Source of the DNA: Saccoglossus kowalevskii
Lineage: Eukaryota; Hemichordata; Enteropneusta; Harrimaniidae
NCBI RefSeq assembly: GCF_000003605.2
Contig: NW_003151753.1
Location: 1 to 29,523 of the forward strand
Direction of reading: 5' to 3'
DNA length: 29,523 nucleotides
This document shows positions 22,192-28,300 of the stretch, in pieces. A program made the position numbers and the translations under genes. Every line of letters begins with the position of its first letter. Within the stretch, counting starts at the first letter, position 1. The notes under the pieces were generated by a model. The model had not been told where the DNA came from. It did not search any database and worked only from the letters and a program-made list of their open reading frames with translations.

Positions 22192-22300
22192 ATGGCATCC
22201 CGTTTTTACACGAATTTGCTTCGACAAATTATTCCGCCTAGATTTCCATATTTGGCTTTCGGTTTGCGTGTTTCCAGACATTTCATCTCATCGAGTCGTC
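22192..22300 (+). CDS. SCRN3: Proposed secernin exon 1 encoding a mitochondrial presequence
   Basis: An ATG in good context (A at -3, G at +4) opens 36 codons plus one base, then GTAAGT at 22301. The peptide [16 protein letters not shown] and what follows has Arg at 4, 11, 17, 26, 29 and 36 and no Asp or Glu. RHF-ISS near the end resembles an R-3 processing site. The leftover base C joins CT at 25470-25471 to form Pro, then QQCGEL leads in frame to the conserved Met at 25490. Only about one in three random phases would fit, and no stop intervenes. Alternatively it could start another transcript or be untranslated; transcript data would settle this. Confidence 0.65.
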
Positions 22301-25300
22301 GTAAGTTATGTTTTTCAAATTCCTCGACCCTTTTCATGTGTTAGTCGTAATTTGTTTCGTTGTTTTGCTTCTATATGAACCGACGTGTTAATCATGAATG
22401 AAAAAAGGGGGTGTGTCCGAATTTTAGTGTTTATTATTATGATGATGTAGATGTCGCTGTGTCTGTATCGCCGTGGTCAACTTTATGAATGGCACGTCAT
22501 TGCCACTAATCGTGTGTTCATTTTCATCATTATTGCAATGTTTTGTTCATGAACGGTTCAATTCAGTTAAAAAAAACAATTTATGTCAGTCAATAATAAT
22601 TATCCGTGACGTATTTAAATGCTACTAGAATATAAAACGAAGATCTGCCGTCTTGATTGTTTGTTTGTTTGAAAGCATGTCTGGGTCATTTGGGTCATTT
22701 AAGGTCATATTAATCTCATACTGACATCAAAAAAGAATAGATTAAATTATAATAAAACATTTTGAGAAATAGATTCAGCGGCCACCGTTAAAACAGAGTC
22801 GCTCTTTGGATTTGGGTGTACTCGAAAACTACTTGATTAGTTTGTCATTTTGATAGAGACAATGGTGTGAACACCATCCTGAAGGGAAATTAAAGATATG
22901 CGAGTAATGATGTTATGAGAAGGAAAAACACTTCTTCGAGACCATTGCAACATGTTCTCAGAAAAGTCTGGTTCAAAATCAAAATCAAATATTTACCCTA
23001 AAGTTTATGCTGTGCTCAGAATCTTCATGGAAATGCATGAAATCCCTAATTTTATGATGTAAACAAAATTCGAATAACAATTCTGTATTTATGTATTTAC
23101 AACAATCTTATAAAGTTCAGCATCTCGCTGATTGGCCAATAATCTTGGAGATGGCGAAAAACAGTCAACCCGTGCAAGTCTGACCTTGCAAATAGACATA
23201 GATCATTTGCACACATTCAGAAAACACATTTTACACATTTTTTTTTTGTTTTTGTTTTTGTTTTTTTTATTTTCAATACATTTATTTTAATTTCAATACA
23301 TACCGGTAAGCACATGTCTATATTGTACAAATAATTTCCATTGTTATGTCACTAATTCTACAACTTAACAGGAATTTTTTGCGAACATAGTCTACTGTAG
23401 CTGGGGGTCCATAGCTTTTTTTGTGTCAGTCTTTAGTCTTTGTGATAGTATTTTAGTCATTTCTGATAGATTTGGTGTCATCAAATTTGCTATTTTTAAA
23501 CATTAGGATTTTTATCAACGCAGAAGAGCTATGGTTCTCATAGACTTGTATAACAAAAACAGGCAACGCCAAATGGCATTGCAAATTTGGTACATAAAAG
23601 CTTGTGAACAGACATTATAGGTATATGATTGAAATCTGTACATACTGATCAGTATTTAGTTGCAATCTTTGCATATTAATTTTCTAATTTGAATTAATTT
23701 GCCTATATTTTGCTGTTCCACAAATAATAAGGACCAACTCGCCTAATTTCAATGAAACTTGGTACACAGATGTGCTGGGAAAATGCACAGATCTGATAAG
23801 TTCTTGATTGAAACCATGCATATTAATGACCTAATTTGCATATTATCAAATTTTAGTCTATATTGTTTCTTAAATCTAGAAACACTGATTTCAATGAAAC
23901 TTGGTACCAGGATATTTTTTGGTTGTAATGTGTATATATTAATTTCCCAATTTCTGTATTTACCAATTCTAAGCTTTTTCACTTGTTTCTCCAAGAACCA
24001 CCACAATTTGGTACATTATTACTCTGAGGTAATTCACCAATGTGGGTCATATAGAGTCTTAAATTTGTAACTAATTTTAAATATTCCATATGTACACTTC
24101 ATATGCTTTTTATAAATACACAGCACACAGAAGTTCTTTTCTTAGCTTTCGTTGATGCAAAAATGCAGGCTAATAAACTGTTGGCCATAGCTCAAAACTC
24201 TTCTCACTAAGTGTGCTAAATTTGCATGTCTGTGTGCATCCATCATTTGATTCAAACTGTCCCCATTTTTGCATGAGGTAAAATCTGAGTTAACAGTTTG
24301 CATATTCTGTACAATTGTTTTTCAGGTTTTGATTATATTTAACTGTCTGGTGGGGTGAATTTTGCCCCCCCCCCCCCAAAAAAAAACAAAACAACAAAAC
24401 AAAACAAAACAAACTCAAATCAAAATTTGTTTAAATATCATTGAATTGTTAGAAGGATAAAACCTGACAAATTAAATTAGCCATCCAAACTTGTCATTTA
24501 GCATTGTAATTCTGTGTTATTGTATGTCTGACATGAATTGAAGATTATATGTCGTATTCATCATATATTCAATATTATCCATTCATTCCATCAGGATATC
24601 AAAAATTAAAAAAAAGTGGTGTCACAAGACAATTTTTCAAGATACAAAAGTCCAAAAGGTCATAAAAAATGGTCCAAATTGATATTTTTACAATGGTTTC
24701 TGTAGTGACATTACTTCCTCATATCTCAACATTTTGCTTGATGACATGGGATAAAAAGTCATACTGTAAAATACTTTATTTTAGCTGGAATTAATTTTTG
24801 CTGAAAAGACATTTTGAATGCTTTGTATGGAATTTATTTTCACTGATTTTTGACAACTTAAATGTAAAATATAGGAAAAAAGGCATATTTGCTGGACTTT
24901 ATTTTCACTGAATCTTTCATTTAGCGAAAATAGGGAAAATTAATTCCAATCGAAAATAAAGTATGCTACAGTATATTATTATTGACATTAAAAATCGGCA
25001 TATGATTTAGTGAATTTCTAAGGTAATAATATTAGGTTTTTTCCCATAATGCATTACTTATATAACATGCTTAGAAGTGTGAAATTTGAATTCAGCTCAA
25101 ACTGGCTTACAGTAATATTGAGTGAAGCATCAGAGGTTGGTCTCATAACAAAGATGGTTTGATTCACATAATGGACAGCAATGAAATGTCGGTGAAATTG
25201 GAGGTCCCATTAAACCCTATAACTGTGTTCACATGCCAATCGACATTCTATGTTTACAATCAGCTTTTAATGTTTAATATATTTACCATATTGAATAAAA

Positions 25301-28300
25301 TGAATACAACTAAATCTTGCATCTCCTAAGATCTGTGGGTTTGTGTATTTCACCTTCTTATCATTCTCTTGCAGCATGTTTAATTAAACACCAAATCAGA
25401 ATGGTGCTACACAAATTCTACCAGGCCATTCAAAATCATAAAAAAAAGTCTTTTTAAATTACTTTATAGCTCAACAGTGTGGTGAACTAATGGCGACTTC
25501 AAAGGATCTCTTACGCCCAAAGTCATGTGATACCTTTGTTGCATTGCCGCCGGCAACTGCTGATGGTAATGTTATATTTGGTAAGAACTCTGACAGACCA
25601 TGTGAGGAAGTCCAGCAAGTAATCCATATACCGGCTACTAGTCACAAAGCAGGATCCAAGTTACAGGTAAAGACAATACTGTAATACCATTAGAAACTCC
25701 AAGGAGAGATAATGTGGATTTTTTAAAAAAAATAAGGAAAAATTACAAAAAAATATATTTTAAAAAAAATCCCACACACATTTGATAGAAAAAAGCCAAA
25801 ATAAATTACAGCAACATTACTGAAAAAAAGTTGTTCTACCCACCCCCTCCAAAGTTCTAATGGTCAATCCTAGAGTGGGAAGGAGGCTACAATCCAGGAA
25901 TTTTTTTTCTTTATTTTTTTTTCAGACTACAGTATATCTACTAAAAATTATTTTTATTCTGAATTTATACAACTGAAGATATAAATCAATGTTAAATGAA
26001 CTGTCAAAACTAGGCTAAGTCAAAGAGGCGATAGACAGAGAATAAGGTTGGGCAGTCAGGGACTGCTGACGATAATTTATTTCATAAACCGGCGCTTGGT
26101 TGGCGCATGCACAGAAGCCACCATATGAAAAACCCCATATGGAAGGATACATCCCTGTGAGGTAATAAAGTACCTCAAAAAACTATAAACTACAAAGCTC
26201 AAAATCTGTAACTACAAACTAAATCTATAACAAACTACAAGCATAAAATAAACAAAAGGGAGGGGTGGGTTGGGGAAACAACGCCTGCCGTGCGTGTCGA
26301 GCCAGCTAGCCAATACCCTCTATCTGTAATGCTGCAATATATAGTGCCAAGGTGTTAGCCACGCTAGCTAAGATAATCACATGTTGAGCTTAAAAACAAT
26401 CAAGCATTGGCGCCGGTAATCTTTTCCTGCTTTGGCATTGGCTTGAAATTGTCTATACCAATAAACAAGCTGGTTGCTATACAGCTGGTAGTGAGGGGAA
26501 AGATTACATTGCTTAATCTGCCACTAAAGGTTACGTAACAAAAGATGACACATTTAAAACTGTATTGAACATAAATACATAACAAAATCCAGTGAAATTT
26601 TTCTTTTTTATTGCATGCCACTCAAGTGAGATTTTTATCATGTCAATATATATTTTTAGCTTCGCTGTCGACTTTGTCGAGCGGAGCTTATCGTATGAGT
26701 GATTGTCCATCGTCGTCCGTGTCAATGTTTTACTTTTTCGACTTCTTCTTGAAAACTACAAGCCTGAATGCTTTGATACTTGGTGTATATGTACCTTGGG
26801 TAGACCTCTCTTAGGTTTGTTCATTTTATGTTGATATCTTCAATTCTCTAATTTTGGTGAATATTTTTGTAATTTTTGGTAAAAAGTGATATTTTCGACT
26901 TCTTGTTAAAAACCGCAAGTCCAATTGCTTTGGTATTACATATATAGGTACTACATGTGGACCTCTCTCAGATTTGTTCATTTCGTGATGATATCTTCAA
27001 TTCTTTAATTTTGGTGAATATTTTTGTAATTTTTGGTAAAAAGTGATATTTTCGACGACTTGTTAAAAACTGCAAGTCCGATTGCTTTGATATTACATAT
27101 ATAGGTACTACATGTGGACCTCTCTCAGATTTGTTCATTTTGTGATGATATCTTCAATTCTCCAATTTTGGTGAATATTTTTGTAATTTTTGGTAAAAAG
27201 TGATATTTTCGACTTGTTAAAAACCAAAAGTTCAATTGCTTTGATATTACATATATAGATACTACCTTTCTCAGATTTGTTCATTTCGTGATGATATCTT
27301 CAATTCTCTAATTTTGGTGAATATTTTTGTCATTTTTGTTAGAAAGTAATATTTTCGACTTCTTGTTAAAAACTGTAAGTCTGATTGCTTTGATCTATAC
27401 ATATTGTTCATTTTCTAATGATGTCTTCAGTTCTTTAATTGAAATGTGCATTGCTAACAGCGGAGCTATCTCAGCCGATAGGCTGCTTGTTTAGCTTTTG
27501 CACTAGGATTTCAAGAACATCTAAACATATTTCAGCTACATAATACAGCTAGAAATACAATCAGCACATCTGATTAGTTTGGGCGACGAACTTGTGCATA
27601 ATGATTACCAAATTTGCATAATAATTAGTACATTTAAACTGCTGCATGGATACCACGCAAAGTTAAACTACCAGTATTTGATTTAGAAATTGAACTGTAA
27701 AACAGAAAACTGTATTTATTTTTTCAGTGTACTTATATTGAAATAGAGCAAGTTCCACATACTCACAGTGTTATACTGAGCAGTCCATCCTGGTTATGGG
27801 GAGCTGAAATGGGAGCCAATGAATATGGTGTCTGTATTGGTAATGAGGCAGTTTGGACCAAGCTTAATGGACCTAATGATAGAAAAGAACAACTGCTAGG
27901 GATGGACTTCGTCAGGTGAGACATTTTTGTTTTTGCTATTTATTAGTCCCCCTTCAGACACAGTCCGAAAACGGGGACTTGTGTTTTGACCTCCGTGCTT
28001 CCATGTGTGCGTCTGGACCTGTATCTTAGAAATGCCTGGACCAATCACAATCAAACTTCACACATACATCATGCATGATGATATACATATGCACATAAAT
28101 TTGTTTCACGATCTGATTCAAGATGGCCGAATGGTGGCCATTTTTGTTCTAAAAATCATCAAAATCAAGCATTTCTCGCCTGTTTACAGATGGATTTTGT
28201 TCAAACTTGGTATATATGTTGGACATTTGTTTTTCAGATAAGTTTAAAAATAACTGACTGGTGGCCATTTTGTTTTAATGAATGTGGTTCGAGTGACATA

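Follow-up and report, generated by a model that had tools for sequence, protein, structure and literature searches.

The window analyzed here, a stretch of 29,523 nucleotides from the hemichordate Saccoglossus kowalevskii (contig NW_003151753.1, forward strand), carries a citrate synthase gene on the minus strand and, apparently diverging from it on the plus strand, a secernin gene that plausibly encodes a mitochondrial form of the enzyme. The animal secernins SCRN1-3 belong to MEROPS family C69 and are assigned to the penicillin V acylase (PVA)-type N-terminal nucleophile (Ntn) hydrolases. The coding part of secernin exon 1 (22192-22300) specifies a presequence-like N-terminus of 36 residues plus one base (phase 1), and is followed by an intron 1 splice donor, GTAAGT at 22301-22306, with GTC on its exon side. 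Exon 2 (25470-25666) begins with PQQCGEL and Met 25490 and contains the catalytic Cys, which is codon 56 of a long form or codon 13 of a short form. Exon 3 (27728-27915) and the start of exon 4 (29449-29523) complete the gene as far as the window end, beyond which the next 20 kb fetched consist of N. The leftover C of exon 1 and the CT at 25470 make Pro37, and the frame stays open via PQQCGEL to Met 25490 and, without a stop, onward through exons 3 and 4. Translation thus bears out the claim of the initial annotation that a 36-residue, six-Arg, acid-free exon at 22192-22300 is in frame with 25470.

The protein core is that of a secernin, with identities to a human secernin guide of 57% (exon 2), 74% (exon 3) and 63% (exon 4). 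In the covered region, 30 columns apart from the initiator Met are invariant across 18 prokaryotic relatives from 17 loci (two proteins lie at one locus), and the aligned window protein keeps every one, Cys56 included. C56-D57 aligns with C2-D3 of the relatives, and Cys56 would become the mature N-terminus. No curated Pfam or NCBIfam profile passes its cut-off on this partial protein: PF03577 gives 14.2 bits (cut-off 23, E 0.022; 134 residues against a 402-position profile), the NCBIfam C45 proenzyme model 29.7 bits (cut-off 85, E 4e-7) and the NCBIfam C69 dipeptidase model 13.9 bits (cut-off 250, E 0.022), below the C45 score. When 135 residues of the window secernin were compared by sequence with solved structures, none matched at E up to 1. 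PF03577 run against the animal's own genome in six frames had no match, for which the division of the gene into exons is the probable reason. The 572 Mb genome yielded one secernin gene, its four exons all in the window, a count from which copies in N stretches or diverged copies could escape. Intron 2 of the gene harbors a tandem array (26803-27404) of 3.9 copies of a 157-base unit.

The 36 codons of exon 1, counted from the ATG, encode six Arg, no Lys and no Asp or Glu, giving a net charge of +6 with no acidic residue. How often would such a peptide arise by accident? Among 820 open 36-codon ATG frames from 114 kb of the genome, a sample that contains the window with the target and has its genes left in, at least six Arg without an acid occur once, in the target itself, and a net charge of at least +6 without an acid occurs in 10, the target counted. 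Of 4000 first-order Markov copies of the promoter region, 48 contain on the plus strand an ATG frame that has six or more Arg and lacks acidic residues; in 35, a frame combines a net charge of +6, absence of acids and a GTRAG donor. Among leaders simulated at 150 nt and 250 nt (100,000 of each), those that continue in frame into secernin and yield at least 43 residues match a strict rule (six Arg, no acid) in 12 and 10 cases, respectively, and a loose rule (net +5, no acid) in 161 and 195; an in-frame extension of whatever length is found in 27%. All these figures flatter the case, as the tested features were picked with the peptide already known; furthermore, CpG-rich DNA raises Arg codons, an effect modeled to first order only. 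Read with these reservations, chance explains the Arg-rich, acid-free leader poorly.

What kind of leader could this be? Mitochondrial peptidases that cleave in two steps recognize an R-10 motif, which R29-x-F31-x-x-S34 of the exon 1 peptide fits; this is weak evidence because a motif of this type also turns up in 41 of 819 background frames. Pfam has no match to the 43 leader residues alone. A secretory signal peptide was rejected on inspection, the peptide having no uninterrupted hydrophobic core. Exon 1 was likewise rejected as a duplicate from elsewhere, as it has a single match in its own genome (in a search that skips very common words), and as a part of citrate synthase, which lies on the opposite strand.

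The setting of exon 1 is what a gene start would be expected to show. It lies inside the highest CpG peak of the window (observed/expected ratio 1.7 against 0.50), within a CpG-rich region between the two divergent genes that we take as promoter (21601-22800) and whose consecutive 300-base bins have ratios of 1.67 (21601-21900), 0.82 (21901-22200), 1.73 (22201-22500) and 1.11 (22501-22800). Single bins elsewhere reach 1.29 (10501-10800, mostly N), 1.12 (20401-20700) and 1.00 (15301-15600), and between 22801 and exon 2 there is no second peak, the highest 300-base bin being 0.73. On the minus strand of the same region lies the probable exon 1 of citrate synthase (21633-21680, phase 0, 16 residues), head-to-head with secernin exon 1, the start codons 512 bases apart. 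Its phase fits exon 2 at 12584, to which it would be linked; exons 2 to 9 (6765-12584, minus strand) were located by tblastn with a mammalian citrate synthase as guide. The arrangement looks like a divergent promoter common to both genes, with transcription starts and a citrate synthase first exon that we infer. The CpG peak, together with the probable divergent first exon of a well-known mitochondrial enzyme, argues for a real first exon at 22192.

By the rule on favorable start-codon context, the two candidate starts differ. The exon 1 ATG is preceded by A at -3 and followed by G at +4 (a purine at -3 with G at +4 surrounds 622 of 5205 background ATGs), against C at -3 for Met 25490, and inspection of the joined transcript shows no ATG between the two. 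A transcript spliced at 25470 is therefore expected to yield mostly the long form, and the cytosolic form that the initial annotation allowed from Met 25490 looks weaker than suggested.

Prokaryotic relatives indicate where the enzyme proper begins. A scan of prokaryote genomes gave 71 secernin-like loci, the closest 66% identical; best-segment identity to the window protein is 49-66% in 66 of them and 38-48% in the other five. The start codon is immediately 5' of the Cys in 63 of the 65 loci with an aligned Cys (62 ATG, one TTG). This count omits the six loci whose match falls short of the Cys, and longer true starts may lie upstream in the loci counted. The Cys is thus the probable first residue of the ancestral secernin core, and the propeptides of animal secernins, like the leader seen here, would be additions that have to come off. 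At a Phycisphaerae locus (L093:1501), inspection finds the Cys preceded by a signal-peptide-like leader with SRA as its last residues, possibly a bacterial targeting leader placed right before the nucleophile. In several Asgard archaea (Heimdall-, Hel- and Lokiarchaeota; L031, L038, L042, L056, L064), secernin-like proteins share 52-58% identity with the animal protein. A likely fold is suggested by a prokaryotic relative: the AlphaFold model of a Heimdallarchaeota protein (pLDDT 90.6) has as best PDB matches the C69 dipeptidases 5img, 5iau and 5imh (template modeling score by query length 0.73-0.75), followed by bile salt hydrolases and penicillin V acylase. On viral contigs, 11 pattern matches for secernin relatives were obtained, none of which was confirmed.

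How would the leader be removed? It had been suggested that mitochondrial processing exposes the Cys. As stated this finds no support: from the R-10 motif, cleavage would be expected after H30 and then after Q38, with 17 residues remaining before Cys56, and a separate autoproteolytic step would therefore be needed. SCRN2 and SCRN3 are reported to cut off GFP fused in front of them, while Cys mutants are not cleaved (PMC6792018), so that self-cleavage need not be prevented by a long extension at the N-terminus. In human secernins the segment before the Cys is short, with the nucleophile at C9, C12 and C6 of SCRN1, 2 and 3 (PMC6792018). Import should precede folding: if the enzyme cut itself too early, in the cytosol, the address label would be lost. 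Self-cleavage after import would be the simplest route to the mature enzyme.

Taking together the open frame, the composition, the CpG setting and the intact core residues, 22192-22300 is probably the exon in which the coding sequence of an animal secernin really begins and would encode a cleavable mitochondrial presequence, the long precursor being imported. Secernin would be transcribed from the CpG-rich divergent promoter shared with citrate synthase, and splicing of exon 1 to 25470 would produce a long precursor with 55 residues ahead of the catalytic Cys. This precursor would enter mitochondria, where matrix peptidases may trim the presequence. Once folded, secernin would free its nucleophile by autoproteolysis before Cys56, and the resulting mature N-terminus would be the same as that of prokaryotic relatives starting Met-Cys. 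With its predicted mitochondrial leader, the gene product is most likely a precursor that would free its own nucleophile, import and cleavage being inferred.

Several further observations weigh against this explanation. The hydrophobic moment of the exon 1 peptide is unremarkable: its best 18-residue window reaches 0.44, matched by 157 of 820 background frames, and residues 1-18 give 0.33. The earlier claim of a mitochondrial presequence is supported in part, by charge and composition relative to the null models, the CpG-rich and apparently divergent promoter, the A-3/G+4 context and the intact core; amphipathicity does not set the peptide apart from background. The donor had been described as perfect, which is true of its intron side (GTAAGT) and not of its exon side, where GTC puts a C at -1 and is unfavorable; on a generic matrix, the donor at 22301 scores 1.3 bits, and 97 of 1588 plus-strand GTs, itself included, do equally well or better. 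A local acceptor matrix, made from 10 other acceptors of the window, puts 24326 (11.44), 25375 (9.42) and 25470 (9.39) in the first three places among 125 intron candidates, and about 1% of the 2911 AGs counted over both strands reach the score of 25470. By a generic pyrimidine score over 126 candidates, 25375 comes first and 25470 tenth. The short form from Met 25490 would have a 12-residue segment before the Cys, a length near that of human SCRN2 (Cys12, PMC6792018); for this reason, the ancestral start may be 25490, with exon 1 untranslated in relatives. Finally, SCRN1 is placed in the cytosol and the endoplasmic reticulum (PMC9140057, PMC6792018) and SCRN2 is described as stabilizing the histone methyltransferase KMT2C (PMC11905051). 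Since the reported roles lie elsewhere, human secernins could not simply be assumed to share a mitochondrial role. In favor of the explanation, the physiological localization of SCRN2/3 is given as unknown (PMC9140057).

Which acceptor does exon 1 join? Among the top 12 of the local matrix, 25470 alone keeps the exon 1 frame into secernin; joined to any of the other 11, the frame meets a stop after 1 to 27 further codons. The junction 22300/25470 is the probable splice, and acceptor 25375 scores the same. It is possible, though unlikely in our estimate, that exon 1 is untranslated and spliced to 25375, and that secernin is made only as the short cytosolic protein from Met 25490. The extension 25375-25457 (plus strand) would then close the exon 1 frame as a 63-codon upstream open reading frame, with TAA at 25455, which would damp translation. 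This acceptor has a classic pyrimidine tract and CAG, the first generic rank and a local score equal to that of 25470; the upstream frame would end at 25455-25457, ahead of 25490, and a short propeptide is usual in human secernins (C6, C9, C12; PMC6792018). However, a frame in strong context that ends 32 bases before the main ATG, along with an ATG at 25376, would be expected to leave secernin poorly expressed, and the presequence-like composition would be left to chance (10-12 in 100,000 under the strict rule, 161-195 under the loose one).

Alternatively, exon 1 may join 25470 while alternative first exons, acceptor choice or leaky scanning yield comparable amounts of mitochondrial and cytosolic protein, which we hold to be less likely still. 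The equally scored acceptors 25375 and 25470, 95 bases apart, would offer such a choice, Met 25490 sits at the usual secernin start and, as a single secernin gene was found, any two pools would share it. Such a dual output overlaps the favored explanation in its mitochondrial half; its cytosolic half is at odds with the weak context at 25490 as against the strong one at 22192, and with the lack of a second CpG peak between 22.8 and 25.5 kb (highest bin 0.73). That exon 1 belongs to another gene or is a chance frame in promoter DNA, the real 5' exon of secernin lying elsewhere, is very improbable: leaders that extend the secernin frame by whatever length are frequent (27% of those simulated) and the best-scoring intron acceptor, 24326, leads away from secernin, but intron 1 has no further CpG peak, the composition of the exon 1 peptide is hard to reconcile with it, and 11 of the 12 top acceptors run into an early stop (a short or non-coding product being conceivable).

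Within the presequence explanation, a more specific version can be drawn, which is tentative and, taken as a whole, doubtful. Secernin would be mainly mitochondrial and co-expressed with citrate synthase, its leader would remove itself before Cys56, it would carry a glyoxylyl-type cofactor in the matrix, and the choice between 25470 and 25375 would act as a mitochondrial/cytosolic switch. Activation would then be independent of the mitochondrial processing peptidase, because the Ntn fold itself would cut before Cys56. A glyoxylyl-type cofactor is reported for human SCRN3 (PMC9285064).

Compared with known systems, the window protein has features of several. It shares with SCRN1-3 the core sequence, the catalytic Cys-Asp and, in its predicted short form, a 12-residue segment before the Cys; it differs from them in a predicted pre-Cys segment of 55 residues and in a mitochondrial-like leader from an exon of its own. 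Prokaryotic secernin-like proteins have the core in common with it and, with their start codon before the Cys, probably have no propeptide. Like cleavable mitochondrial presequences such as that of citrate synthase, the exon 1 peptide is basic, acid-free, rich in Ser, Leu and Arg, encoded by a separate first exon and equipped with an R-10-type motif; unlike them, its removal could be finished by autoproteolysis of the cargo enzyme. The bacterial C69 dipeptidases (5img, 5iau, 5imh) are the best fold matches of the Heimdallarchaeota model, but at 14-15% identity and with no mitochondrial context.

In the open-licence literature searched, as far as those texts were available, no description of a mitochondrial secernin was found, which is not proof of absence. 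If the explanation is correct, a poorly understood enzyme family would be able to work inside mitochondria, and a long form located in mitochondria, in an animal for which one secernin gene was found, would suggest a substrate there. It also raises a mechanistic question: how is a leader that stands ahead of an autoproteolytic nucleophile imported before the enzyme cuts it off?

Citrate synthase, counting its probable first exon, appears to be complete in the window (6765-21680, minus strand). On the minus strand beyond TTTTTGCAG, from 21580 downwards, lies ISSTTNE, which resembles the end of the citrate synthase presequence and may be a further small exon of that gene, for which no convincing donor was identified. 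In the region between the two genes, the palindrome CGCATGCG at 21775-21782 is unique within the window; it has three mismatches to the full NRF-1 consensus and sites with two mismatches occur outside the promoter, so that no NRF-1 site is claimed. Rfam gave no match at gathering score on the window. An AC dinucleotide repeat of 31.5 copies (5428-5490) lies downstream of citrate synthase. In the mitochondrial contig of the same genome (C4830; L100, L101; 17,037 bases), codon use, judged at conserved positions, suggests a code that assigns ATA to Ile, AAA to Lys and AGA to Ser, which tentatively resembles that of a hemichordate most. COX1 and ND6 lie there on the strand opposite the other recognized protein genes.

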